IMG/VR virus record: IMGVR_UViG_3300029309_000185
Coordinates: 1-32,035 of that record
Origin: a virus
Length of the DNA: 32,035 nucleotides
Strand: one strand, 5' to 3'
Made by a program: the position numbers and the translations under genes. Positions 7,111 to 31,305 of this stretch are shown piece after piece. Position 1 is the first letter of the stretch. The number at the start of each line of letters is the position of its first letter. A model generated the notes under the pieces. The model did not search any database, was not told where the DNA came from, and saw nothing but the letters and a program-made list of their open reading frames with translations.

Positions 7111-8082
7111 ATGAATGTTACTAAAGTTGGCGACTCAAGAGAGTTGCTTGAAGAGTTAGAGGACAAAACAGTTAACGTGGTGTATTTAGATCCACCATTC
7201 AACTCAAACAGAAAATACAGGCTAACATCATCTGATGATAGTGTTGGATTTGACGATATATTCTCAACTGATAGTGAGTATGTTGAACTGGTCAGTCCGA
7301 TAGTAAAAGAGTGTGCTAGAATCCTAAAGAAAGATGGGTCGTTTTTCTTCCACATCTCAGCTGATCAAATGTTGATTCCGCATATGATATGTTCAAAGTA
7401 TTTCAAGAAAGTTCAACCAATATTTTGGAAAAGATCAAGGTCCAAAAACAATGTAAAAACAAAAATCGGAGCTTGCACTGATGTTATTTTTTGGTGCTCA
7501 CATCTTGAAAAACCTAAGTTCAACATGGTTTATCAGCCATTAGACCCTTACTATGCTGAGAACTCTTATAAGAATAAAGATAAAAGAGGAAACTATGCAC
7601 TTGGGCACATTTGTTACACAAAGACTCAGGCCCCTGATCGTAAGAAAACTCCTCATCGATACTATGAAATACAACATGGCGGTAAAACATACAACCCACA
7701 GTATGGATGGAGAATGTCCAAAGAGGATCTCGAGTCTTTGATTGCGGATGATAGGATTCACTTCCCGACCAAGAGAGGTAATCCCTACAAGAAGATATAT
7801 GCTCATGAATCAAAGGGCAAGCCATCAACAGATTATTGGGATGATATACACTCAATAGCAATGGGTGCAGAGGAGAGAGTATATCCTACGCAAAAACCAG
7901 TGGCTCTACTCAAAAGAATCATAGAGATGACTTCTGATGAGGGAGATGTTGTTTTAGATCCCACTGCTGGATCAGGGACAACTGGGGTTGCAGCATCACA
8001 GCTTGGTAGAGAATACATACTATTTGATATTAGTGAAGATGCTATTGAAACCTGCAAGAGGAGAATAAAAAATGAAGGATAA
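7111..8082 (+). CDS. DNA (N4-cytosine/N6-adenine) methyltransferase, beta class
   Basis: A 323-residue SAM-dependent DNA methyltransferase. The catalytic motif IV, DPPF (27-30), precedes the SAM-binding motif DPTAGSGTTG (from ~D283). This order defines the beta class. PTQKPVALLKRII just before motif I is typical of the family. The middle ~200 residues should hold the target-recognition region; specificity cannot be read from sequence. The start has AAGGAGG upstream. The neighbouring 254-residue gene has its own promoter and could be a partner nuclease, but self-protection against host restriction is an equally good explanation. Confidence 0.93.
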   Translation: MNVTKVGDSRELLEELEDKTVNVVYLDPPFNSNRKYRLTSSDDSVGFDDIFSTDSEYVELVSPIVKECARILKKDGSFFFHISADQMLIPHMICSKYFKKVQPIFWKRSRSKNNVKTKIGACTDVIFWCSHLEKPKFNMVYQPLDPYYAENSYKNKDKRGNYALGHICYTKTQAPDRKKTPHRYYEIQHGGKTYNPQYGWRMSKEDLESLIADDRIHFPTKRGNPYKKIYAHESKGKPSTDYWDDIHSIAMGAEERVYPTQKPVALLKRIIEMTSDEGDVVLDPTAGSGTTGVAASQLGREYILFDISEDAIETCKRRIKNEG

Positions 8083-20463: not shown

Positions 20464-20658
20464 ATGAAAAAAAATATAACCTCTAAATCTTCACTGGAGT
20501 TTGGTTCCCTAGTTCGACACAAGAGTAGTGGTTCAATCGGTATAGTGGTGTATGTTTCCCCTACGCCCGAAGCCATTCATCATATTGAAGTATGGCTATG
20601 TGATGATAATAGCACCAGATGGTGGTCGCACGAGTTTTGTGAGGTAATATGCAAGTAG
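20464..20658 (+). CDS. Array-family SH3/KOW-like protein, probable leaderless mRNA
   Basis: A 64-residue protein. The landmarks are FGSLVRHKS, IGIVVYV, IEVWLCDD and the canonical end CEVICK. The ATG is six bases after the -10 box, so there is no room for a ribosome-binding site. The N-terminus carries a Lys/Ser extension before the GSLV motif. It overlaps the next gene by exactly 10 nt. Confidence 0.75.
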   Translation: MKKNITSKSSLEFGSLVRHKSSGSIGIVVYVSPTPEAIHHIEVWLCDDNSTRWWSHEFCEVICK

Positions 20659-20819
20659 GTGACTTAGTGTTGATAACGTCAAGTGATGAGCAACTAAAAA
20701 TGGTGGGTCTTTATATTGGTAGACCATACCACTGTGAGTTTTCATACAAACTAATGTATGAGGGTAGTAAGATCGCAGACTTTGATATAAGATTTTGGAA
20801 AATAGAAGTTTTGTCTTGA
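20649..20819 (+). CDS. Array-family SH3/KOW-like protein
   Basis: A 56-residue protein. GAGGTAAT precedes the ATG inside the upstream gene. It begins MQVGDLVLITSS, has VGLYIG and FSYKLMYEG, and ends KIEVLS without the Cys-Lys tail, as expected for the last member of an operon. Its TGA lies inside the TTGACA of the next promoter. Confidence 0.75.
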   Translation: MQVGDLVLITSSDEQLKMVGLYIGRPYHCEFSYKLMYEGSKIADFDIRFWKIEVLS

Positions 20820-22812: not shown

Positions 22813-22829
22813 TTTTTTATACTTTTTAT

Positions 22830-22857
22830 TTGACAGATACTACCACCGTGATACATT
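22830..22857 (+). promoter_or_regulatory. Sigma-70-like extended -10 promoter
   Basis: TTGACA (22830-22835), a 16-base spacer ending in CCGTGA and TACATT (22852-22857), preceded by T-rich sequence. Confidence 0.88.
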
Positions 22858-22887: not shown

Positions 22888-23079
22888 ATGCAAGTAGGAG
22901 ACTTAGTGATAATAAAAAACAGTTGGTATCTAAAAGGCCAAATGGGTGTGATAACTAAGTATGTCAAGAAAAAATCACTGCCTGATACTGTGCAGGTATA
23001 TATTCCCAACCCACCACCAGAACAACCAAAAAACTGGGCTTGGCTACAATACTATAACGTGGAGCTACTATGCAAGTAG
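22888..23079 (+). CDS. Array-family SH3/KOW-like protein
   Basis: A 63-residue protein, first of a four-gene cassette run. The start block is GGAGGTAATATGCAAGTAGG. Landmarks are MQVGDLVIIKN, MGVITKYVKK, VQVYIPNPPPE and VELLCK. The 10-nt overlap with the next gene gives its Cys-Lys-stop end. Confidence 0.8.
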   Translation: MQVGDLVIIKNSWYLKGQMGVITKYVKKKSLPDTVQVYIPNPPPEQPKNWAWLQYYNVELLCK

Positions 23080-23225
23080 GTGATTTAGTACGATACACAC
23101 ACGATGATCGTATCGGTGTTGTTGCCGAAGTGTATGGTTTAGTTTGTGATATGGCTACCATATTTCTTTGTAATGGTGAATATGAGCTAATCTATGGCGA
23201 CGAGGTGGAGTTATTATGCAGATAG
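23070..23225 (+). CDS. Array-family SH3/KOW-like protein
   Basis: A 51-residue protein overlapping its neighbours by 10 nt on both sides. It begins MQVGDLVRYTHDD, has IGVVAEVYG and ATIFLCNGE, and ends VELLCR. The Arg instead of Lys before the stop follows from the next gene starting MQIG rather than MQVG. Confidence 0.75.
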   Translation: MQVGDLVRYTHDDRIGVVAEVYGLVCDMATIFLCNGEYELIYGDEVELLCR

Positions 23226-23380
23226 GAGATATAGTATGTCTACCCTGTAAACGAGAGATTGGTCTAGTTATGCAGGTTGGTGATGGGGTAAACGATGATA
23301 TGATTTATGTTCATTGGACCGCTGGTACATTTGCTGGCGAAACTGAATGGTGGGTTATTTCTCTACTGGAGCTTTTATGA
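23216..23380 (+). CDS. Array-family SH3/KOW-like protein
   Basis: A 54-residue protein: MQIGDIVCLPC, IGLVMQVGD, IYVHWTAG, SLLELL. It ends in an ATGA overlap with the next start. It shares the cassette arrangement with its neighbours. Confidence 0.75.
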   Translation: MQIGDIVCLPCKREIGLVMQVGDGVNDDMIYVHWTAGTFAGETEWWVISLLELL

Positions 23381-23544
23381 AAGTGGGCGCACTAGTGAGA
23401 CACGTTGTCCACCGCGATGCAATCGGTATGGTAGTCGAGGAAAAGCTGCCGTCTATAGCTGGCTTGGTAAAAGTCCAATGGTTCACTATGGGATGGGGTT
23501 ACGCTTGGATACGCCCCAAAAACCTCGAACTTATCTCTAGTTGA
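23377..23544 (+). CDS. Array-family SH3/KOW-like protein
   Basis: A 55-residue protein. The ATG at 23377 is preferred over an in-frame GTG upstream because of the overlap pattern (GGAGCTTTT before it) and the family start MKVGALVRH. Then come IGMVVEEK, VKVQWFTMG and NLELISS. It is terminal in its operon, with no Cys-Lys tail. Confidence 0.75.
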   Translation: MKVGALVRHVVHRDAIGMVVEEKLPSIAGLVKVQWFTMGWGYAWIRPKNLELISS

Positions 23545-23545
23545 C

Positions 23546-23571
23546 AAAAAACTTTACCTTTTTACTTGACA
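23546..23571 (+). repeat. Promoter-upstream A/T-tract element, copy 1
   Basis: AAAAAACTTTACC followed by a T-run and ACTTGACA. The same block recurs before 28827. Close variants (AAAAAACTTTATC plus T-run) occur at 27770 and 28583, and a related one at 24302. It is a possible UP element, or a weak A/U terminator of the upstream operon. Confidence 0.55.
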
Positions 23572-23593
23572 AACATTACAGCCGTGATACATT
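23566..23593 (+). promoter_or_regulatory. Sigma-70-like extended -10 promoter
   Basis: TTGACA (23566-23571), a 16-base spacer ending in CCGTGA and TACATT (23588-23593). Confidence 0.88.
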
Positions 23594-23623
23594 ACTAGTA
23601 CCCACCCAAACACAGGAGAGACA

Positions 23624-23869
23624 ATGAGTAAGAAGCGAAAAATAAAAAACCCTTTCAAGCTCACACTATCTGAAGCAGTTCTGATTGCTGAGGGGGAAGT
23701 GGAGGTAGAAGAGGACAAGTTTATTGCAACATGGCAATACCTAATCGATACAGGACACGCTTGGGAGCTGCAAGGTTTCTATGGCCGAGCAGCAGCAAGT
23801 ATGATACAGAATGGCCTTTGTACAATGCCTAAACAACCAGAAGATGGAGGAAACAATGGAAGCAAATAA
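23624..23869 (+). CDS. Small phage hypothetical protein
   Basis: An 81-residue protein with CAGGAGAG upstream. It has a basic N-terminus, then LTLSEAVLIAEGEVEVEE, WQYLIDTGHAWELQGFYGR and AAASMIQNG. This looks like a small conserved phage family seen in many genomes, from memory and without a search. Predicted helical. Its end overlaps the next gene by 14 nt. Confidence 0.8.
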   Translation: MSKKRKIKNPFKLTLSEAVLIAEGEVEVEEDKFIATWQYLIDTGHAWELQGFYGRAAASMIQNGLCTMPKQPEDGGNNGSK

Positions 23870-24089
23870 CGAGATCAACATTAGCATTAGCGTTAGCGAT
23901 GACTTGCTAAAGAAAGTGATGGGTATGATGGTTACCCTCAACCAACCAGCACCGATGGGAATACCAGCAGCGATGCTTGGGGCCTTGGCTGGCCCGCCAC
24001 CATCAAAAAAGCCAAGTAAAGAAGATAGAACACCAATAGGGTTTGGTCGCCCTGAAACCACTAACAACGAGGAGGACGCAAATGACTAG
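23856..24089 (+). CDS. Small hypothetical protein
   Basis: A 77-residue protein. The ATG at 23856 follows TGGAGGAAAC. It has a strand (EINISISVSDD), a helix (LLKKVMGMMVTL), then a Pro/Gly/Ala-rich disordered tail. No family recognised. It overlaps the next gene by 8 nt. Confidence 0.75.
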   Translation: MEANNEINISISVSDDLLKKVMGMMVTLNQPAPMGIPAAMLGALAGPPPSKKPSKEDRTPIGFGRPETTNNEEDAND

Positions 24090-24303
24090 TAAACTAAAAC
24101 CATATAGAGCAACCACTGAGGAAGCTATGATCATATTTGACCATATCTACGAGACAGTGCAGCACAACTTCAGCTACAGTATGTTTTATGGCGATAACTT
24201 TGAGATAACATGCAACCGCACAGGTGATACAATCGTCCTAGGAATGTGGTCATTCCGTGACCCAGACAGCGTTCTGGTAGCATTTCATAAAGATTTTCTA
24301 TAA
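24082..24303 (+). CDS. Small hypothetical protein
   Basis: A 73-residue protein. The ATG at 24082 follows GAGGAGGACGCAA. It has a helix (TEEAMIIFDHIYETVQ), then strands (NFEITCNRTGDTIVLGMW; SVLVAFH). No family recognised. It ends an operon. Confidence 0.75.
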   Translation: MTSKLKPYRATTEEAMIIFDHIYETVQHNFSYSMFYGDNFEITCNRTGDTIVLGMWSFRDPDSVLVAFHKDFL

Positions 24304-24321
24304 AAAAGTTTATCTTTTGAC

Positions 24322-24349
24322 TTGACAGATCTCAGCAGCGTGATACACT
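24322..24349 (+). promoter_or_regulatory. Sigma-70-like extended -10 promoter
   Basis: TTGACA (24322-24327), a 16-base spacer ending in GCGTGA and TACACT (24344-24349). Confidence 0.88.
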
Positions 24350-24380
24350 ATGGACACAACCAACAAACATTGGAGGTCAA

Positions 24381-25145
24381 ATGACCATTACAATCGAACA
24401 AATCACAAAAACTGCTGAGATCTGTGAGGGTCTTGGCAAGGCTAGTAAGGCACACGTTTTACGGAGCATCGCCGACCAGTATGTTGAGAAAGGACAAATC
24501 AGTTCTCGACAGATTGAATGGTGTCAGGAGCAAATCGAAGCATTCCCTGTTGAAATGTACGAGGAGCAGGTAAGAAAGCGTAAAGAATGGCATAGACTGT
24601 GGCGTACCAAAGATGAGCAGTTTCTCAAATGGATTGACTTCTTGACCCTATTCTATGTGTCTAGCCGTTACTCTCAGGGACCTCACAGCGGACACATTGA
24701 ATGGTACAAAAGCTGCGCTTCAGAGTTACGACGGCAGCTAGAGATGTATCGTCAAGGCCTTGATGTTGATCTCCATTTACCTCGCCTTGAGAGATTGGAG
24801 GGCACTAAGCTCCGTGATAAGTTGTGGGGCTGCTTCAACTCTACCCCCCTATATGGGGTAGGTGACCTAGTGTCCATACGAGGAACCGCTCCCACATTCT
24901 CGTCTTGGCGCCTTATCAGTTACAGTCACGATAAGTTCCGTGACGGTCTGCATGGCTATCAAGACCGTAAAGTTGCAAAGCCTTACAAGACAGCCCTAGT
25001 TGCCGAGGTTCTAAACGCTACGTTTGCCTGCCGTCAGATACACAAATCAAAAGGTAGCACCCGACTGTACAGGATTGTAGCATTTAGTGCAGGTCAGTCT
25101 GATGAGACTTGGGTTTGTGAAAGCGATATAAAACTGGTCAAATAG
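24381..25145 (+). CDS. Hypothetical protein with C-terminal array-family SH3-like domain
   Basis: A 254-residue protein with TTGGAGG upstream. Residues 1-150 are helical and charged. The N-terminal stretch includes KAHVLRSIADQYVEKG and QISSRQIEWCQEQI, an outline seen in phage proteins that bind DNA or helicases, but unassigned. Residues ~158-254 read VGDLVSIRG, TALVAEVLN, YRIVAFSAG and SDIKLVK, the same landmarks as the array proteins. It is therefore a natural fusion of the array domain to another domain. The next array gene starts ten bases after its stop. Confidence 0.85.
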   Translation: MTITIEQITKTAEICEGLGKASKAHVLRSIADQYVEKGQISSRQIEWCQEQIEAFPVEMYEEQVRKRKEWHRLWRTKDEQFLKWIDFLTLFYVSSRYSQGPHSGHIEWYKSCASELRRQLEMYRQGLDVDLHLPRLERLEGTKLRDKLWGCFNSTPLYGVGDLVSIRGTAPTFSSWRLISYSHDKFRDGLHGYQDRKVAKPYKTALVAEVLNATFACRQIHKSKGSTRLYRIVAFSAGQSDETWVCESDIKLVK

Positions 25146-25155
25146 TGGAGGTAAT

Positions 25156-25353
25156 ATGCAAGTAGGTGATTTGGTAAAGAGCAACTATCCCGATATGCAG
25201 GGAGCCATGGGTATGATTATTGAAACTAGGTCCGTGACCTATTGGATGAGCGGAAGCACCCAGCAATACAAAATCGATTGGGTGGATAGAAACCGCCAGC
25301 CTATCGGTGTAATGTGGATGACTGCTGAGAAGTTGGAGCTACTATGCAGATAG
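25156..25353 (+). CDS. Array-family SH3/KOW-like protein
   Basis: A 65-residue protein. The start block is GTGGAGGTAATATGCAAGTA. Landmarks are MQVGDLVKSN, MGMIIETRS, YKIDWVDRN and LELLCR. It overlaps the next gene by 10 nt; the Cys-Arg end matches the next start, MQIG. Confidence 0.8.
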   Translation: MQVGDLVKSNYPDMQGAMGMIIETRSVTYWMSGSTQQYKIDWVDRNRQPIGVMWMTAEKLELLCR

Positions 25354-25496
25354 GTGATTTGGTGATGCACACCGAGGACAGGAGGTTTGGAGTTATCACC
25401 AGAGCAGCCACCGACAGTTACCCATTTTTTGTTGTTGATTTTGTTGAGGGCGGCATGTGCCTGTGTTCCTCGCAATCGTTGATAAAAGTTTCATAA
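25344..25496 (+). CDS. Array-family SH3/KOW-like protein
   Basis: A 50-residue protein: MQIGDLVMHTED, FGVITRAA, FFVVDFVEGG, SLIKVS. It is terminal in its operon, without the Cys-Lys tail. GGAGCTACT precedes the ATG. Confidence 0.75.
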   Translation: MQIGDLVMHTEDRRFGVITRAATDSYPFFVVDFVEGGMCLCSSQSLIKVS

Positions 25497-25501
25497 AAAA
25501 A

Positions 25502-25550
25502 CTTGACAGATACTCCTACCGTGATACACTGTATATGTAACCAACAACAA
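25502..25550 (+). repeat. 49-bp promoter/leader repeat, copy 1
   Basis: This stretch, from the C before TTGACA through the leader CCAACAACAA, is identical to 27790-27838. Identity across the spacer and leader, not just the boxes, implies recent duplication. Confidence 0.9.
25503..25530 (+). promoter_or_regulatory. Sigma-70-like extended -10 promoter
   Basis: TTGACA (25503-25508), a 16-base spacer ending in CCGTGA and TACACT (25525-25530). Confidence 0.88.
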
Positions 25551-25560
25551 TGGAGAGACA

Positions 25561-25827
25561 ATGACTGATTATTCAATCCCATTCAATGTCGCTGACCTAT
25601 GCACATTCGGCCCTGAGCAGGAGTTTGGTATTGTGCAAGATATACTGACGGCACAGTTACCTGACTTTGCTATCGTAGTCCTGTATGTGCCTAATCCACA
25701 CCCTGATGTGAGAGGTTTGCACACTAGACACGTTTATATGAGCCCGAAGCACGTCGGTGGCTGGAGACAGCATAGCTCAGGCGGTTTTCTATTGACCAAC
25801 ATTACCACGGGGGAAACATGGAAGTAG
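25561..25827 (+). CDS. Small SH3/KOW-like protein, divergent
   Basis: An 88-residue protein with ATGGAGAGAC upstream. Landmarks are FNVADLCTFG, FGIVQDI and IVVLYVPNP, then a longer C-terminal half ending TGETWK. The final ETWK-stop arises from a 10-nt overlap with the next start (ATGGAAGTAG), the same geometry as the Cys-Lys junctions. Confidence 0.75.
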   Translation: MTDYSIPFNVADLCTFGPEQEFGIVQDILTAQLPDFAIVVLYVPNPHPDVRGLHTRHVYMSPKHVGGWRQHSSGGFLLTNITTGETWK

Positions 25828-26021
25828 GCGACTTAGTAACATTGTCATCAAAGGGATGGTTCAACAAGGGCAACATTGAAGTCCGTGGAAAAGTGGGCGT
25901 TATTATCGAAATCGGAGGGCCGTGCAGGTACCCATACCAAATCAAATGGTTCAACGCCTCAAGACTTCATCACTCTCGTGGTCTGCTCAGAATGAAGAGG
26001 TATGAGATACGAAAAGTTTGA
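25818..26021 (+). CDS. Array-family SH3/KOW-like protein
   Basis: A 67-residue protein: MEVGDLVTLSSK, VGVIIEIGG, YQIKWFNA, and a basic end YEIRKV. There is no clear GGAGG; ACGGGGG lies before the ATG. Terminal in its operon. Confidence 0.75.
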   Translation: MEVGDLVTLSSKGWFNKGNIEVRGKVGVIIEIGGPCRYPYQIKWFNASRLHHSRGLLRMKRYEIRKV

Positions 26022-26029
26022 GAAAAGAC

Positions 26030-26057
26030 TTGACAGATTATTTTATCGAGTTACATT
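26030..26057 (+). promoter_or_regulatory. Sigma-70-like promoter
   Basis: TTGACA (26030-26035), a 16-base spacer ending in CGAGT and TACATT (26052-26057). Confidence 0.82.
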
Positions 26058-26095
26058 GAATATACAAACAACAACCGCATAGCCTTGGAGGGCAA

Positions 26096-27019
26096 ATGCA
26101 GATATATGATGCTAGAGGAAGTAGAAAAGGTACTAACGCTTGCAGCTATTGCAGGCAGCATGGTCACAATGTAACAAAATGTCCTCACGTTGCACCCGAT
26201 TGGGCTTCATGGCAGCGTATGGAAGTTCCCCTGAAAGACCCTGATTGTTGGGTGCATAAGATGCCAACCAACAGATATGGTAGAAGCCACTATTATAAGA
26301 TACCAAGGTATTGGGGTGAATGGTATCAAAATGCTGCGAATGCTCACGCCAAGCAGGAAGCAGCTAAGAAAAAATCTGAAACACCTCGGCAGCAACGTGG
26401 CCCGAGGAAGTGTGGGTTTTGCGGAGAAGAGGGTCACACTCGTAGAAACTGTGCAGAGCTACTGGTGTTCCGAGAGAAAGCAAACAGAGCTAATCAAGCA
26501 ATCCGTCGATATGTATACGATACGGTGATTGCCGAGCATGGCATTGATAGGGGAGCTTTGATCAACCCTAGGCGACACGTTTATGATTGGCAAAATCGAA
26601 GATATGTTGAGGATGACGATGGTGTATGTACTGTGCTTAGAGTTGCTTGGGACAGTGTTAGTGTAACCATCGATAATGCAAACTTCCAGCTCGACCCAGA
26701 TCTCAGAACATCACTGACTGTGACCTACCTAACCCCTGCCGGAACACAGAGAAACATGTCAATCGACATCAATGAAGCAATCACTGGTCCTCGACCAGAG
26801 CCGACAAGTCGATACCATACTCTCTCAAATAAAACTTGGATCAATCAGGTCATCTCGCCATCTCCCACACCCCTAGATGAGGAGTGGGTACGTGATGCAA
26901 GGCAAGATGCTTTTGACTGGTTATCCACAAAGCGAAGTAAAGAATGGCTAGAAAACAGCAAGCTGGTGGAAACTATTGAACGATGGGCAGCTAAATACAA
27001 CAGTGAGGATGGGCAATGA
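26096..27019 (+). CDS. Protein with two CCHC zinc knuckles
   Basis: A 307-residue protein with TTGGAGG upstream. Two retroviral-type CX2CX4HX4C knuckles are present: C16, C19, H24, C29 and C106, C109, H114, C119. Both also have the Gly-His pair. The knuckles are separated by a Trp/Tyr-rich, Lys-rich linker. The rest (~125-307) holds an aromatic/charged helix (REKANRANQAIRRYV), a strand-rich part (CTVLRVAWDSVSVTI; LTVTYLTPAG) and a helical end. CCHC knuckles bind single-stranded RNA or DNA and are rare in phage proteins. Function unknown; RNA binding is a reasonable inference. Confidence 0.88.
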   Translation: MQIYDARGSRKGTNACSYCRQHGHNVTKCPHVAPDWASWQRMEVPLKDPDCWVHKMPTNRYGRSHYYKIPRYWGEWYQNAANAHAKQEAAKKKSETPRQQRGPRKCGFCGEEGHTRRNCAELLVFREKANRANQAIRRYVYDTVIAEHGIDRGALINPRRHVYDWQNRRYVEDDDGVCTVLRVAWDSVSVTIDNANFQLDPDLRTSLTVTYLTPAGTQRNMSIDINEAITGPRPEPTSRYHTLSNKTWINQVISPSPTPLDEEWVRDARQDAFDWLSTKRSKEWLENSKLVETIERWAAKYNSEDGQ

Positions 27020-27222
27020 ACAACATTATCGGTAAACTATATCGCCACAAACAACACAATGATGAATACTGGGTAATCACGGAGAAGTTTGTTGCTGCTG
27101 GCACAGGCAGGCCATCTCTCAAACTGAGACTGACCAGCTCCAGCAGCAGACTAGGCAACGCAGCAACAGGGATTACTCACATATATGAGGATTGTCTGCA
27201 TCACGAATATGAGGAAATCTAA
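27016..27222 (+). CDS. Small SH3-like protein
   Basis: A 68-residue protein in an ATGA overlap with the knuckle gene. It begins NNIIGKLYRHKQ, then YWVITEKFV and LKLRLTSSSS, and ends HEYEEI. It has a strand-rich layout similar to the gene at 31784 (start GKLY), and only distantly resembles the GDLV members. Confidence 0.7.
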   Translation: MNNIIGKLYRHKQHNDEYWVITEKFVAAGTGRPSLKLRLTSSSSRLGNAATGITHIYEDCLHHEYEEI

Positions 27223-27231
27223 ACTTTTTTC

Positions 27232-27259
27232 TTGACAAATCTTACTACCGTGATACACT
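27232..27259 (+). promoter_or_regulatory. Sigma-70-like extended -10 promoter
   Basis: TTGACA (27232-27237), a 16-base spacer ending in CCGTGA and TACACT (27254-27259). Confidence 0.88.
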
Positions 27260-27287
27260 ACCTATGTAACCCAAACAAGGAGACACA

Positions 27288-27473
27288 ATGCAAGTAGGAA
27301 GTTTAGTCAGATACCAGCACAAATACCCAGACGGTATGGAGGTAGACTGGATTGGAATAGTGATTGACTGTGAGATTGACAGCATTGGGAGGATTGTTCC
27401 TCATGTTCAATGGAGCAACGGAATGAAACAATGGAGATACGATATGAGGGATTTGGAGGTAGTATGCAAGTAG
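27288..27473 (+). CDS. Array-family SH3/KOW-like protein
   Basis: A 61-residue protein, first of a three-gene cassette run. It begins MQVGSLVRYQHK, has IGIVIDCEI and PHVQWSNGM, and ends LEVVCK. The 10-nt overlap with the next gene gives the Cys-Lys end. AAGGAGA precedes the start. Confidence 0.8.
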   Translation: MQVGSLVRYQHKYPDGMEVDWIGIVIDCEIDSIGRIVPHVQWSNGMKQWRYDMRDLEVVCK

Positions 27474-27610
27474 GCTCAGTTATTAGAGATGATATACTAG
27501 ACAGGTTCGGTATCGTCGTCCTCTTGGACACTGATATGGTCAAAGTCACTTGGAGCGATGGGGATTCCCATTGGGCTTGGGTGCATCATTTGGAGGTAAT
27601 ATGCGAGTAG
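27464..27610 (+). CDS. Array-family SH3/KOW-like protein
   Basis: A 48-residue protein, the shortest member. It begins MQVGSVIRDDI, has FGIVVLLD and VKVTWSDGD, and ends LEVICE. The Cys-Glu end reflects the next start being ATGCGAGTAG. The ATG at 27464 is chosen by the overlap pattern over an in-frame ATG at 27410. Confidence 0.78.
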   Translation: MQVGSVIRDDILDRFGIVVLLDTDMVKVTWSDGDSHWAWVHHLEVICE

Positions 27611-27765
27611 GTGATTTAGTAAATGATGGGCTTGGTAACATTGGTATCATAACGGTGGCCAATAAAGACTTGCCGTTGCCCTATTTCGCACAGTTTTTCA
27701 ATACCTATGATGGTTACGACATCACTGGCTGGTACACAGACGGAGACTTGGAGGTAGTAACATAA
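27601..27765 (+). CDS. Array-family SH3/KOW-like protein
   Basis: A 54-residue protein: MRVGDLVNDG, IGIITVANKD, FAQFFNTY, LEVVT. GGAGGTAAT lies directly before the ATG. Terminal member, no Cys-Lys tail. Confidence 0.78.
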   Translation: MRVGDLVNDGLGNIGIITVANKDLPLPYFAQFFNTYDGYDITGWYTDGDLEVVT

Positions 27766-27796
27766 TCTCAAAAAAACTTTATCTTTTTTCTTGACA
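27761..27796 (+). repeat. 36-bp stop/upstream-element repeat, copy 1
   Basis: CATAATCTC, an A-run, CTTTATC, a T-run and CTTGACA. It is identical to 28574-28609. It spans from the stop codon of the last cassette gene to the next -35 box. Confidence 0.88.
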
Positions 27797-27838
27797 GATA
27801 CTCCTACCGTGATACACTGTATATGTAACCAACAACAA
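27790..27838 (+). repeat. 49-bp promoter/leader repeat, copy 2
   Basis: Identical to 25502-25550. Confidence 0.9.
27791..27818 (+). promoter_or_regulatory. Sigma-70-like extended -10 promoter
   Basis: TTGACA (27791-27796), a 16-base spacer ending in CCGTGA and TACACT (27813-27818). Confidence 0.88.
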
Positions 27839-27849
27839 CGGAGACAAAA

Positions 27850-28044
27850 ATGCAAGTAGGTGATTTAGTGCAGATAGCCCCAGCGAGGAAAGAATGCTCA
27901 ATAGGTATTATTCTAGAACAGGCCCCGACTAAGTTCCACGGTAAGCAGAGACTTTTAGTCCATTGGTTCAACCCTAACGGACTGGGTGTGCCATCGCTGG
28001 TTGCTTGGGAACACAGCGATAAACTGGAGGTAATATGCAAGTAG
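27850..28044 (+). CDS. Array-family SH3/KOW-like protein
   Basis: A 64-residue protein, first of a four-gene cassette run. It begins MQVGDLVQIAPA, has IGIILEQAP and LLVHWFNPN, and ends LEVICK. ACGGAGACAAAA precedes it. The 10-nt overlap gives the Cys-Lys end. Confidence 0.8.
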   Translation: MQVGDLVQIAPARKECSIGIILEQAPTKFHGKQRLLVHWFNPNGLGVPSLVAWEHSDKLEVICK

Positions 28045-28211
28045 GGGATTTAGTTATTGATCTTTCACTGGACAGCACAGCAATCGGGATGATTGTCACT
28101 AATGGGTTCTATACAAACATTGGAACTCCGTTTGACTGGGGTGTTTTCTACTTCGTGACTGGAGACATACTGGGTGCGGATACCTATCATTTGGAGAGGA
28201 TATGCAAGTAG
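28035..28211 (+). CDS. Array-family SH3/KOW-like protein
   Basis: A 58-residue protein overlapped by 10 nt on each side. It begins MQVGDLVIDLS, has IGMIVTNG and WGVFYFVTGD, and ends LERICK. The RBS GGAGGTAAT is provided by the upstream gene's Glu-Val codons. Confidence 0.78.
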   Translation: MQVGDLVIDLSLDSTAIGMIVTNGFYTNIGTPFDWGVFYFVTGDILGADTYHLERICK

Positions 28212-28417
28212 GTTCATTAGTAAAGTTCAACGAAGAGCGTTTGCCCTATGTTCTCGGCCCCAGCAACGCAAAGCATTACAAGGGCAAGATAGGTATTATC
28301 ATTGAAGCCAAGGATGACCACAAAGAACCGACCTCCAGCACACTGTTCAAGATACATATAGATGGAGAGAACCTTGAATGGTTCGTATGGCACGAGCTGG
28401 AGATGGTATGCAAGTAG
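28202..28417 (+). CDS. Array-family SH3/KOW-like protein
   Basis: A 71-residue protein: MQVGSLVKFNEE, IGIIIEAKDD, FKIHIDGEN, LEMVCK. It carries a longer first loop than most members. It has 10-nt overlaps on both sides. Confidence 0.8.
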   Translation: MQVGSLVKFNEERLPYVLGPSNAKHYKGKIGIIIEAKDDHKEPTSSTLFKIHIDGENLEWFVWHELEMVCK

Positions 28418-28578
28418 GCGATTTAGTAAAACACAACTCTAAGCTCTATAGTGAGCCTTACTTGGGCATCGTACTCGATACGACCTGTGTGCAAGCTAAT
28501 GTTTGCTGGTTCACTTCTCCGTCTGGTGATGCCTTTTCAAGCTGGGTGTACCTCCGTGCGCTCGAAGTCGTAGCATAA
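28408..28578 (+). CDS. Array-family SH3/KOW-like protein
   Basis: A 56-residue protein: MQVGDLVKHNS, LGIVLDTTC, ANVCWFTSP, LEVVA. It is the terminal member of its run, without the Cys-Lys tail. The start is set by the junction block GGAGATGGTATGCAAGTAGG. Confidence 0.78.
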   Translation: MQVGDLVKHNSKLYSEPYLGIVLDTTCVQANVCWFTSPSGDAFSSWVYLRALEVVA

Positions 28579-28899: not shown

Positions 28900-29961
28900 A
28901 TGGCTATTGATTTCAAAACTATGCTAAACGTACTTCCTGCTATCACCGATGCTCGGTATCCTGTTCTTATCCGTGGTCGTCACGGTATTGGTAAATCTAC
29001 TATCGTCTATCAGTATGCTGAAGAGCACAACCTCCCTGTGGTCGAGCGGCGAGCTTCTCAGATGACTGAGGGTGACCTACTTGGGCTGCCGAAAGTTGAG
29101 GGTAACGTCACCACTTGGCTTCCACCAGAATGGCTCGCAGAAGCCTGTAACAACGGCGTTATCCTGTTCCTCGACGAAGTTGATAGAGCTACTATGGAAG
29201 TCCGTCAAGGTATCTTCGAGCTTTGCGACAGCCGAAAGATTGCCGGTCAGCATCTGCACCCTGACACCCTTATCTTTGCTGCCGTCAATGGCGGTGAGCA
29301 TGGCGCTCAGTATCAGGTTGGCGAAATGGACCCTGCCGAGCTTGACCGTTACACTGTGTTCGATGTTCAGCCAACAATCGAGGACTGGTTAGGTTGGGCC
29401 GATGGTACTGTATCTCAGGTTATCTGGGACTTCATCAACAACAACCACCAGCATCTTGAACATACCGATGATTACGAGCCAAACAAGGTCTATCCGTCTC
29501 GACGGTCTTGGGAGCGATTGGACAAAACACTCGCTGGTCTGGGTAAGATTGAAGCAAACGCAAGCCTGTATCATATTGCTAGTTCGTTTGTTGGCTTTGA
29601 AGCTGCCGTTGCATTCCGTGACTTTGTTGGTAACTACAAGTCTATCGTCACCCCGGAGGACATTATCGACGATGGCCGACACGATCTTGTTGTTGACTTC
29701 AAGATCAACGACCACAACGCTCTCATCGAGAGTATGGTACAGCAAAAGTGCTTCGACATCGAGCTAGACGAAAACCAGCTCAAAAATACTGCAACCTATA
29801 TGGTTCAGCTCCCATCTGAGCTTGCTATGAACCTGTGGAAGCATATCACCAGCGGAGCTAAGGCCATCGAGAATGCCGGAGGTATTCACAAGTGTGACCT
29901 TGGTGACGATCTCCCAACCGTAAAAGAGTTTATGATGGAGGTGCTCGCTGCTAAGAAGTAA
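28900..29961 (+). CDS. MoxR-type AAA+ ATPase
   Basis: A 353-residue protein. Walker A is GRHGIGKST (26-34), Walker B VILFLDEVD (87-95), sensor 1 FAAVN (N130), and an Arg-bearing ELDRY segment is at ~147-151. LPPEWL before Walker B is typical of MoxR/YifB-like ATPases. The C-terminal ~180 residues form the lid and a helical domain. MoxR ATPases work as chaperones with a VWA-domain partner, here the gene at 30076, each with its own promoter. AGAGGTG is the modest ribosome-binding site. Its target in phage infection is unknown. Confidence 0.9.
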   Translation: MAIDFKTMLNVLPAITDARYPVLIRGRHGIGKSTIVYQYAEEHNLPVVERRASQMTEGDLLGLPKVEGNVTTWLPPEWLAEACNNGVILFLDEVDRATMEVRQGIFELCDSRKIAGQHLHPDTLIFAAVNGGEHGAQYQVGEMDPAELDRYTVFDVQPTIEDWLGWADGTVSQVIWDFINNNHQHLEHTDDYEPNKVYPSRRSWERLDKTLAGLGKIEANASLYHIASSFVGFEAAVAFRDFVGNYKSIVTPEDIIDDGRHDLVVDFKINDHNALIESMVQQKCFDIELDENQLKNTATYMVQLPSELAMNLWKHITSGAKAIENAGGIHKCDLGDDLPTVKEFMMEVLAAKK

Positions 29962-29973
29962 GCGACCCCACGG

Positions 29974-30005
29974 CCCCCGAGAAATCGGGGGTCAACTATT
30001 TTTTT
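29974..30005 (+). terminator. Rho-independent terminator with GNRA loop
   Basis: CCCCCGA (29974-29980), loop GAAA, TCGGGGG (29985-29991), then after 7 bases a run of T (29999-30005). It separates the ATPase gene from the next promoter. Confidence 0.75.
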
Positions 30006-30016
30006 CATTTTTTTAT

Positions 30017-30044
30017 TTGACAAATGCCTAGAACCTGATACATT
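30017..30044 (+). promoter_or_regulatory. Sigma-70-like extended -10 promoter
   Basis: TTGACA (30017-30022), a 16-base spacer ending in CCTGA and TACATT (30039-30044). Confidence 0.85.
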
Positions 30045-30075
30045 ATCTATGTAACCAACAAACATTGGAGGTCAA

Positions 30076-31305
30076 ATGACCGATAAGCAACCATTCGATT
30101 TGAACAAGGTAACATGGCAGTTGTTACAGAACGAGCCTTTCTTTGCTGCTCTTTCTCGTCGCATCCACAAGTCCTCTACTACCGCTATACCCACCGCTGG
30201 TGTACGTATCAACAAAGATACTGCCCAGTTTGAAATGGTGTATAACCCTGCTTTCTTCGAGGATCTCGAACCAGTAGAGCAGCGCGCTGTTCTGAAGCAC
30301 GAGTTTTACCACCTCATCTTTCAGCACGTCACTGGCCGTCTCCCTCCGGAGGGTATGTCCAAAATGTGGAATGTGGCGACTGACCTTGCTATCAACAGCT
30401 TCATTGCTGAAGAGCTTCCGGAGGGTGGTTGCATCCCTGGCATTGAGCCATTCCAAGATTATCCACCTGAGATGTCAGCAGAATGGTATTTCTCAAAGCT
30501 CCAGAATGATGAGCAGTTCCAGCCAAAAGATGATGACGGTGATGGTCAAGGTCAAGGCCAAGGTGGTGGCGATGGTGAACCAACCGATGGCCAAGGCGGT
30601 TCTGGTGGCGGTCTACCTGATAGTCTGGATGACCACTCAGGCTGGGGTGACGTTGACCAAGAGACACGAGCTATGGCCGAGGAAAGGCTCAAAGATGCAG
30701 TCCGTAAAGCATCCCAAGAAGTCAACGAGGGCGGTCGTGGCTGGGGTTCAATCTCAGCATCCTGTCGCAAGCAAATCCAAGATATGGTTACCCCTCGCGT
30801 AAACTGGCGGTCTGTGCTTCGTTACTTCATCAAGACATCACAGCGAGCTAGTAAACGATCCACTGTTCGACGCATCAATAAGCGGTTCCCCTATATCCAC
30901 TCAGGCAAAAAAGTCACTAGACAGGCGAAGATTGCGATCTCCATTGACCAATCGGGTTCGGTTTCTGACCAGATGCTTGCTACATTCTTCGCAGAGCTGG
31001 AGGGTTTGGCTAGATATGCTGAGTTCACAGTGGTTCCATTCGACACTGAGGTTGCCGAGGACAAGGTATATATCTGGAAAAAAGGTCAACGCAGAGAATG
31101 GGAGCGTGTGTCTTGCGGTGGTACAGATTTCGATGCACCGACCAAATGGGTCAATGAGCGACAGTTTGACGGTCACATCGTGCTCACCGATATGGAAGCT
31201 CCCAAGCCAGTACCGTCCAAATGTCAGCGTATGTGGATGACCACCCCAGAATGCAAAGACCGTCAGTATTTCCAAACGAGAGAGCGAGTTATCGCCATTG
31301 ACTAA
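30076..31305 (+). CDS. VWA-like protein with N-terminal zincin domain (MoxR partner)
   Basis: A 409-residue protein with TTGGAGG upstream. The N-terminal ~150 residues are a predicted metallopeptidase domain with HEFYH (H75-H79, HExxH). A Gly/Asp/Gln-rich linker follows (~155-185). The C-terminal domain is VWA-like with a MIDAS motif DQSGS (D291, S293, S295), and later has GGTDFDAPT and VLTDME. This architecture is known as the usual companion of MoxR ATPases in bacteria. The ATPase immediately upstream makes a matched pair. Confidence 0.9.
   Translation: MTDKQPFDLNKVTWQLLQNEPFFAALSRRIHKSSTTAIPTAGVRINKDTAQFEMVYNPAFFEDLEPVEQRAVLKHEFYHLIFQHVTGRLPPEGMSKMWNVATDLAINSFIAEELPEGGCIPGIEPFQDYPPEMSAEWYFSKLQNDEQFQPKDDDGDGQGQGQGGGDGEPTDGQGGSGGGLPDSLDDHSGWGDVDQETRAMAEERLKDAVRKASQEVNEGGRGWGSISASCRKQIQDMVTPRVNWRSVLRYFIKTSQRASKRSTVRRINKRFPYIHSGKKVTRQAKIAISIDQSGSVSDQMLATFFAELEGLARYAEFTVVPFDTEVAEDKVYIWKKGQRREWERVSCGGTDFDAPTKWVNERQFDGHIVLTDMEAPKPVPSKCQRMWMTTPECKDRQYFQTRERVIAID

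Follow-up and report, generated by a model that had tools for sequence, protein, structure and literature searches.

How phages exchange modules cleanly at gene borders is an old question. It is raised here by virus record IMGVR_UViG_3300029309_000185, which was analysed over its complete 32,035 bases (hereafter the window); the record is a contig, probably a genome fragment, of an uncultured marine phage. Ten genes in the window, starting at 20649, 23070, 23216, 25344, 25818, 27464, 27601, 28035, 28202 and 28408, each overlap the end of the preceding gene, stop codon included, by 10 nucleotides (nt). The joint-bearing genes encode proteins of 48–71 amino acids, SH3-like or KOW-like small beta-barrels. 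The window probably contains promoter-led arrays of promoterless, one-gene SH3-like cassettes that are exchanged by recombination between the shared joints. With its relatives, the array gives hundreds of natural joints of defined sequence with mapped switch points.

An earlier note on this DNA, made from the sequence alone, had listed ten overlaps of exactly 10 nt between consecutive genes, and all ten are present. The sequence ATGC(A/G)A(G/A)TAG begins the downstream gene (MQVG, MQIG or MRVG); read in the shifted frame of the upstream gene, it closes that gene (CK, CR or CE). The note was also right that the last upstream residue follows from the next gene's codons: TGC-AAG-TAG gives CK, TGC-AGA-TAG gives CR, and TGC-GAG-TAG gives CE. 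In the order of the joints, the upstream tails are EVICK, ELLCK, ELLCR, ELLCR, ETWK (25818), EVVCK, EVICE, EVICK, ERICK and EMVCK. The general joint consists of an upstream E-x-x-C-(K/R/E)-stop, a Shine-Dalgarno (SD) sequence, and a downstream start M(Q/R)(V/I)G. The claim that a block encoding LEVICK and supplying the SD stands at most joints held for the architecture, but the exact GGAGGT core is found in only some of the ten. One block does appear to do the several jobs proposed for it – end of the upstream protein, SD, start of the downstream protein – and the stop codon can be added to them. A 4-nt joint (ATGA) at 23377, of the same junction type, was absent from the note's list, as was the 14-nt form of the relatives.

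The motif GGAGGTAATATGCAAGTAGG, allowing up to three mismatches, has nine matches on the plus strand of the window, none on the minus strand, and none for a reversed control pattern. Among hand-picked non-family neighbour genes in the window, overlaps are of 1, 4, 7 or 17 nt, and none is of 10 nt. The block is also present, in exact copy, at 22888 and at 25156, two genes without an overlapping upstream gene. The automatic gene set mis-starts the gene at 23216 (as 23186), giving an odd overlap of 40 nt. With start and stop codons overlapping and the SD inside the upstream gene, the joints have the layout of translationally coupled overlapping gene pairs.

The small proteins form a single, very diverse family with the pattern M-x-V-G-(D/S)-L-V ... 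I-G-x-V ... V-x-W ... L-E-V. An AlphaFold model from 81 family members (predicted local distance difference test, pLDDT, 85.5) has five strands, the last of which is LEMVC, residues 66–70 of 71. Fold comparison of the model gave a VIA Z of 8.7 to PetP and 8.6 to human DSIF KOW6-KOW7, a Z near 8 being middling, and a profile search with the family matched DNMT3B, SPT5 and NusG chains. Profiles and fold comparison together put the family with the SH3-like/KOW/Tudor/PsaE-type small barrels (about 60 amino acids, five short strands). Pfam and PHROG searches gave scattered weak matches and no consistent family for the small proteins. A tblastn search of one member against 50,697 phage records found no match in isolated phages, and a 12-kb core stretch had no near match among them. 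Relatives of 184–206 kb have 9–33 family profile matches each; overall, uncultured marine phages of ~185–205 kb have some 10–40 copies of the family per phage. Arrays are present also in contigs chosen solely by a neighbouring MoxR gene, so their presence is not an artefact of the search.

Coupled family pairs in 148 non-redundant contigs overlap by 14 nt (580 pairs), 4 nt (151) or 10 nt (148), proportions that are not an unbiased census, since contigs chosen by MoxR are mixed with contigs chosen by junction patterns. The MoxR-chosen contigs alone have 333, 63 and 13, respectively. One joint thus has three phases, of which the 10-nt form is a minority outside the window's clade. The 4-nt form reads TTGGAGGTAATATGAAAGTAGG, and its ATGA ends the upstream protein at LEVI. 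In the 10-nt form, codon 2 is CAA in place of AAA, which removes the ATGA stop; the TAG of GTAG, six bases on, is next and adds Cys-Lys. The 14-nt form has two extra bases between SD and start (GGAGGTGATAAATGAAAGTAGGTGA), its stop is the TGA inside GGTGAT, and its tail is EVINESR. All three keep an SD close to the start.

A single pair or cassette can be found in more than one form. The window genes 28035 and 28202 overlap each other by 10 nt, the counterpart pair in the related contig G001 by 4 nt; the cassette at 25344 stands in a 10-nt context in the window and in contig G002, a 4-nt one in G001 and a 14-nt one in contig G014. Counterparts of one cassette occur with and without the Cys-Lys tail, which is a by-product of codon 2 being CAA rather than AAA. 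Since the same pairs take different overlap forms, the tail residues are probably dispensable.

Two contigs carry further overlap lengths. Between 8636 and 8922 in contig G006 (L131) there are three successive 13-nt overlaps, with heads MFKVGDLV and tails ending in CSK, which may be a fourth form of the joint. Contig G005 (oriented) has 19-nt overlaps at 7903, 8479 and 8628, with tails ending in CKSEI or CKSEV; there codon 3 ends in C (ATGCAAATC), which abolishes the TAG, and translation would go on to a stop farther along, a further step in the same series.

The codons of the joint bear the mark of the SD. The Glu codon of the last strand (LEV) is GAG in 381 of 403 coupled members (381:22) and in 39 of 82 terminal ones (39:43), and about half of the Glu codons in the bodies of other genes are GAG. 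In the 10-nt class, coupled members almost always encode the Leu before this Glu as TTG or CTG. The Glu residue is found in coupled and terminal members alike, so it is the protein that demands the residue and the SD that demands its codon. These synonymous choices indicate that the SD in the joint is under selection. Together with published work on overlapping pairs, the signature suggests that translation across the joint is coupled.

In 70% of 677 gene heads, both alternative frames are shut by +20, vs 36% when the heads are re-coded with the codons that other genes of these phages use near their starts. Most of the excess of closed frames is due to GGT ahead of GA(T/C), and members without an upstream family gene show it too. 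A frame-closing head would let a cassette stand behind any other in either non-zero frame. Alternatively, many heads may be closed simply as they have other genes in front of them, or had until lately. The preference of the heads for GTA and TTA is in part the general near-start bias of these phages and was not counted whole as a joint signature; only the excess over the control was used.

Counterparts of a cassette in different contigs (reciprocal-best, at least 60% identity) mostly have different neighbours. Of 337 comparisons of their coupled followers, 274 paired non-homologous genes and 63 homologous ones; in a further 217, only one of the two counterparts had a follower. The overlap length was kept in 229 of the 274 right-neighbour swaps, vs 159 expected from each contig pair's own mix of forms, and in 191 of 260 left-neighbour swaps, vs 146 expected. 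The first data set gave swaps in 114 of 145 cases for the family vs 56 of 248 for adjacent non-family genes (Fisher p about 6e-28, to be taken as indicative only).

The earlier note had proposed the joint as ready-made homology for cassette change, to be abandoned if joints were no more conserved than gene bodies and no cassettes came or went there. Alignment of the joints in relatives bears it out: the joint DNA is far more conserved than the gene bodies, and it is at the joints that followers come, go and change places, with the overlap preserved, from which homologous recombination itself is inferred. Identity by position was compared with a contig-pair-matched background. At right-swapped 14-nt joints (n=136), identity is above background to +8 and at background by about +18; at left-swapped ones (n=123), it is above background from +14. 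Identity at 14-nt joints therefore goes with the upstream gene as far as about +8 and with the downstream gene from +14. For 10-nt joints (n=16 and 19), the switch is between +6, the limit of the upstream gene's identity, and +12, where that of the downstream gene sets in. The alignments thus place the exchange points within, or at the edge of, the overlap, and the joints appear to be phage boundary sequences, that is, homologous DNA at module borders with exchange there.

Direct cases are found between the window and G002. The region 27231–27474 is 94% identical and the match stops at the joint, while the cassette at 28189–28418 is 95.7% identical with both match ends in joints; the neighbouring MoxR-VWA region is 76% identical. 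In the G002 counterpart of gene 28202, the follower is lost and a bare remnant, GGAGGTGGTATGCAAATAGG, is fused directly to the promoter region of the next operon. Gene 22888 is 90% identical in G002, but its follower there is the counterpart of 20464, not of 23070; the joint is again of 10 nt, and the 20464/20649 pair thus follows the 22888 counterpart.

Each cassette has a head ATG-(C/A)AA-GT(A/C)-GG(T/A)-GA(T/C)-TTA-GT and a tail made of the last beta-strand codons, TTG-GAG-GT(A/G). At a joint of two cassettes, the SD of the second lies in the LEV codons of the first, and the head of the second stops the first in whichever frame it arrives: at the TGA in ATGA (4 nt), the TAG in GTAG (10 nt) or the TGA in GGTGA (14 nt). 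All joints thus share about 20–36 nt, over which, in the mechanism proposed, a phage RecA-like recombinase or strand annealing could act. Through recombination there, whole cassettes could be added, lost or exchanged without damage to either protein or to the SD spacing. The benefit may be rapid turnover of small host-interaction proteins. A RecA-family gene is present in 6 of 6 relatives searched; a RecT-type annealase was searched for and not found.

Homologous recombination is the simplest account of these data, because the overlap length is exactly reused, remnants end at the joint, and heads are shared; the comparisons make homology-driven exchange reasonably probable. Several points weigh against it. 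Joins that keep two overlapping genes intact must fall in the overlap under any mechanism, so breakpoint position alone does not tell homologous recombination from joins made at random and then selected. Exact tracts common to unrelated joints are short, with a median of about 4–13 nt and a maximum of 19–30 nt (single-genome counts include some mis-assigned starts), which is near or below the need of many recombination systems. Orphan remnants are rare: three of the six candidates (in G002, L036 and L180) look clear. The comparisons are not phylogenetically independent, the contigs being related, and all relatives are metagenomic contigs. The short tracts, the SD codon signature, and the conservation of an SD near the start at three different overlap lengths would suit selection for tight translational coupling only, with random (illegitimate) joins of which the survivors restore an efficient SD-overlap geometry; the shared joint would then be the result, not the cause, of shuffling. 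This is unlikely, though to be taken seriously: the same overlap length is kept far more often than would be expected from the mix of forms in the contigs (229 vs 159), heads keep a stop frame that they do not use, and orphan remnants end just past the joint.

All copies belong to one fold family, and A/T-rich near-start codons in all genes of these phages explain part of the GTA/TTA bias, as would be expected if tandem copies had multiplied the joint by vertical duplication and divergence, the ends being conserved as the first and last strands of a conserved fold and little being exchanged between phages. Such a history is improbable, as near-identical cassettes with different neighbours, 94–96% identical vs 76% for the core, need exchange or repeated loss, and the synonymous GAG bias is absent in terminal members. 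It is very improbable that assemblers fused different phages at a repeated joint. The joints are indeed repeats and all the data are assembled contigs, but the exact shared tracts, at most about 30 nt, are normally shorter than sequencing reads, and swaps are seen repeatedly, in about 100 contig pairs drawn from many samples, some of them fixed in contigs of at least 185 kb.

Recombination between shared joints would give these phages something like an integron. In integrons, single-gene cassettes without promoters stand in arrays and are exchanged at a conserved element, a likeness that extends to the window; in the phage arrays, however, the element is protein-coding, exchange appears to be based on homology, and no match to a tyrosine integrase (PF00589) was found in seven relatives, one of which (G001) is a 64-kb fragment, with positive controls. 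More tentatively, and with some doubt, the arrays could be an integrase-free cassette system whose recombination site is written wholly in overlapping protein code, the head closing the other two frames and the tail carrying the SD, so that a cassette would be stopped and translated behind any other in either non-zero frame; phages would use it to turn over a library of SH3-like host-interaction proteins. Synonymous positions in the joint can be recoded, which would separate homology-driven exchange from coupling, and the joint suggests a design rule for operons whose genes are exchangeable while both reading frames stay intact.

For the mosaicism of lambdoid phages, conserved boundary sequences have been proposed (discussed in PMC3029335), in which short conserved DNA at gene borders likewise serves as homology for module exchange; the window joint differs in being wholly coding in two frames, doubling as SD, start and stop, being repeated at most joints of one array, and having three phase dialects. 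T4-type phages have PeSL (promoter early stem-loop) cassettes (PMC4503421, which cites Arbiol 2010 and Comeau 2014), repeated regulatory DNA between small-gene modules that is tied to shuffling. The window too has repeated promoters between operons, but its joint lies inside the overlap of two coding genes, without promoter or stem-loop. No tandem promoter and terminator was found at the coding joints, consensus promoters being between operons, and terminator-like sites in the window are not enriched (5 found vs 6.3 expected). In cluster K mycobacteriophages, genes of unrelated families share a 13-bp upstream element, the Start-Associated Sequences (SAS; PMC3203893). Like the joints, SAS are short, recur at many gene starts, have an SD core and sometimes include the stop codon of the upstream gene, whereas the window element reaches into both proteins of one paralogous family. 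The SAS motif GGGATAGGAGCCC, with up to two mismatches, has no match in the window. As described in PMC3203893 and PMC4503421, neither SAS nor PeSL is coding on both sides. Overlapping gene pairs coupled by termination-reinitiation, studied mainly at 4- and 1-nt overlaps (PMC6728339, PMC10666635), also have overlapping start and stop codons and an SD inside the upstream gene. The phage array, in contrast, is dominated by 10- and 14-nt overlaps that are stable when the partner changes.

Coordinates of the operons, example joints and promoters in the window
Feature	Position	Strand	Detail
Two-cassette operon (20464-20658 and 20649-20819)	20464..20819	+	10-nt joint at 20649-20658
Four-cassette operon	22888..23544	+	10-nt joints 23070, 23216; 4-nt joint (ATGA) 23377
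Head gene of the 22888..23544 operon		+	keeps block CGGAGGTAATATGCAAGTAGG though no gene overlaps it upstream
Two-cassette unit	25156..25496	+	10-nt joint at 25344
Head at 25156		+	keeps TGGAGGTAATATGCAAGTAGG, 10 nt past the stop of the 24381 gene
Family gene	25818..26021	+	10-nt overlap with preceding non-family gene 25561-25827 (ATGGAAGTAG, tail TWK-stop)
Three-cassette operon	27288..27765	+	10-nt joints 27464, 27601; end LEVVT-stop with GGAGGT, without follower
Four-cassette operon	27850..28578	+	10-nt joints 28035, 28202, 28408
Example joint GGAGAGGATATGCAAGTAGG	28193..28212	+	tail ERICK-stop, SD, start MQVG
Example joint GGAGATGGTATGCAAGTAGG	28399..28418	+	orphan remnant at same site in G002 (GGAGGTGGTATGCAAATAGG / AAAAACTTTATC), no follower
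Example sigma-70-like promoter	22829..22857	+	TTGACA-16-TACA(T/C)T
Other promoters	20431, 20816, 21110, 23566, 24322, 25503, 26030, 27232, 27791, 28604, 28827		

About a dozen near-identical sigma-70-like promoters open the operons, with TTGACA, a spacer of 16–17 nt, TACA(T/C)T, and mostly TG before the -10. The DNA flanking them is repeated too, up to 60–78 nt, a second and longer homology that could serve whole-operon shuffling.

The DnaE, ClpP-like, GroEL-like, MoxR-like and VWA-like genes of the window were named by eye from their translations. Two larger proteins, 24381–25145 and 6–548, seem to have a barrel-like domain with G-D-(L/V)-V at their end, as though by fusion of a cassette in frame – frame 0, the sole frame that a head cannot stop; the family profile gives weak support for this in 6–548 and none in 24381. 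Inside the array, 26096–27019 encodes a 307-amino-acid protein with two CCHC zinc-knuckle-like motifs (CSYCRQHGHNVTKC and CGFCGEEGHTRRNC), unusual in a phage. The region 28900–31305, which encodes a MoxR-like ATPase and then a VWA-like protein, adjoins the array in many relatives, and its best matches in isolated phages (Vibrio phage Va1 group) are only about 35% identical.

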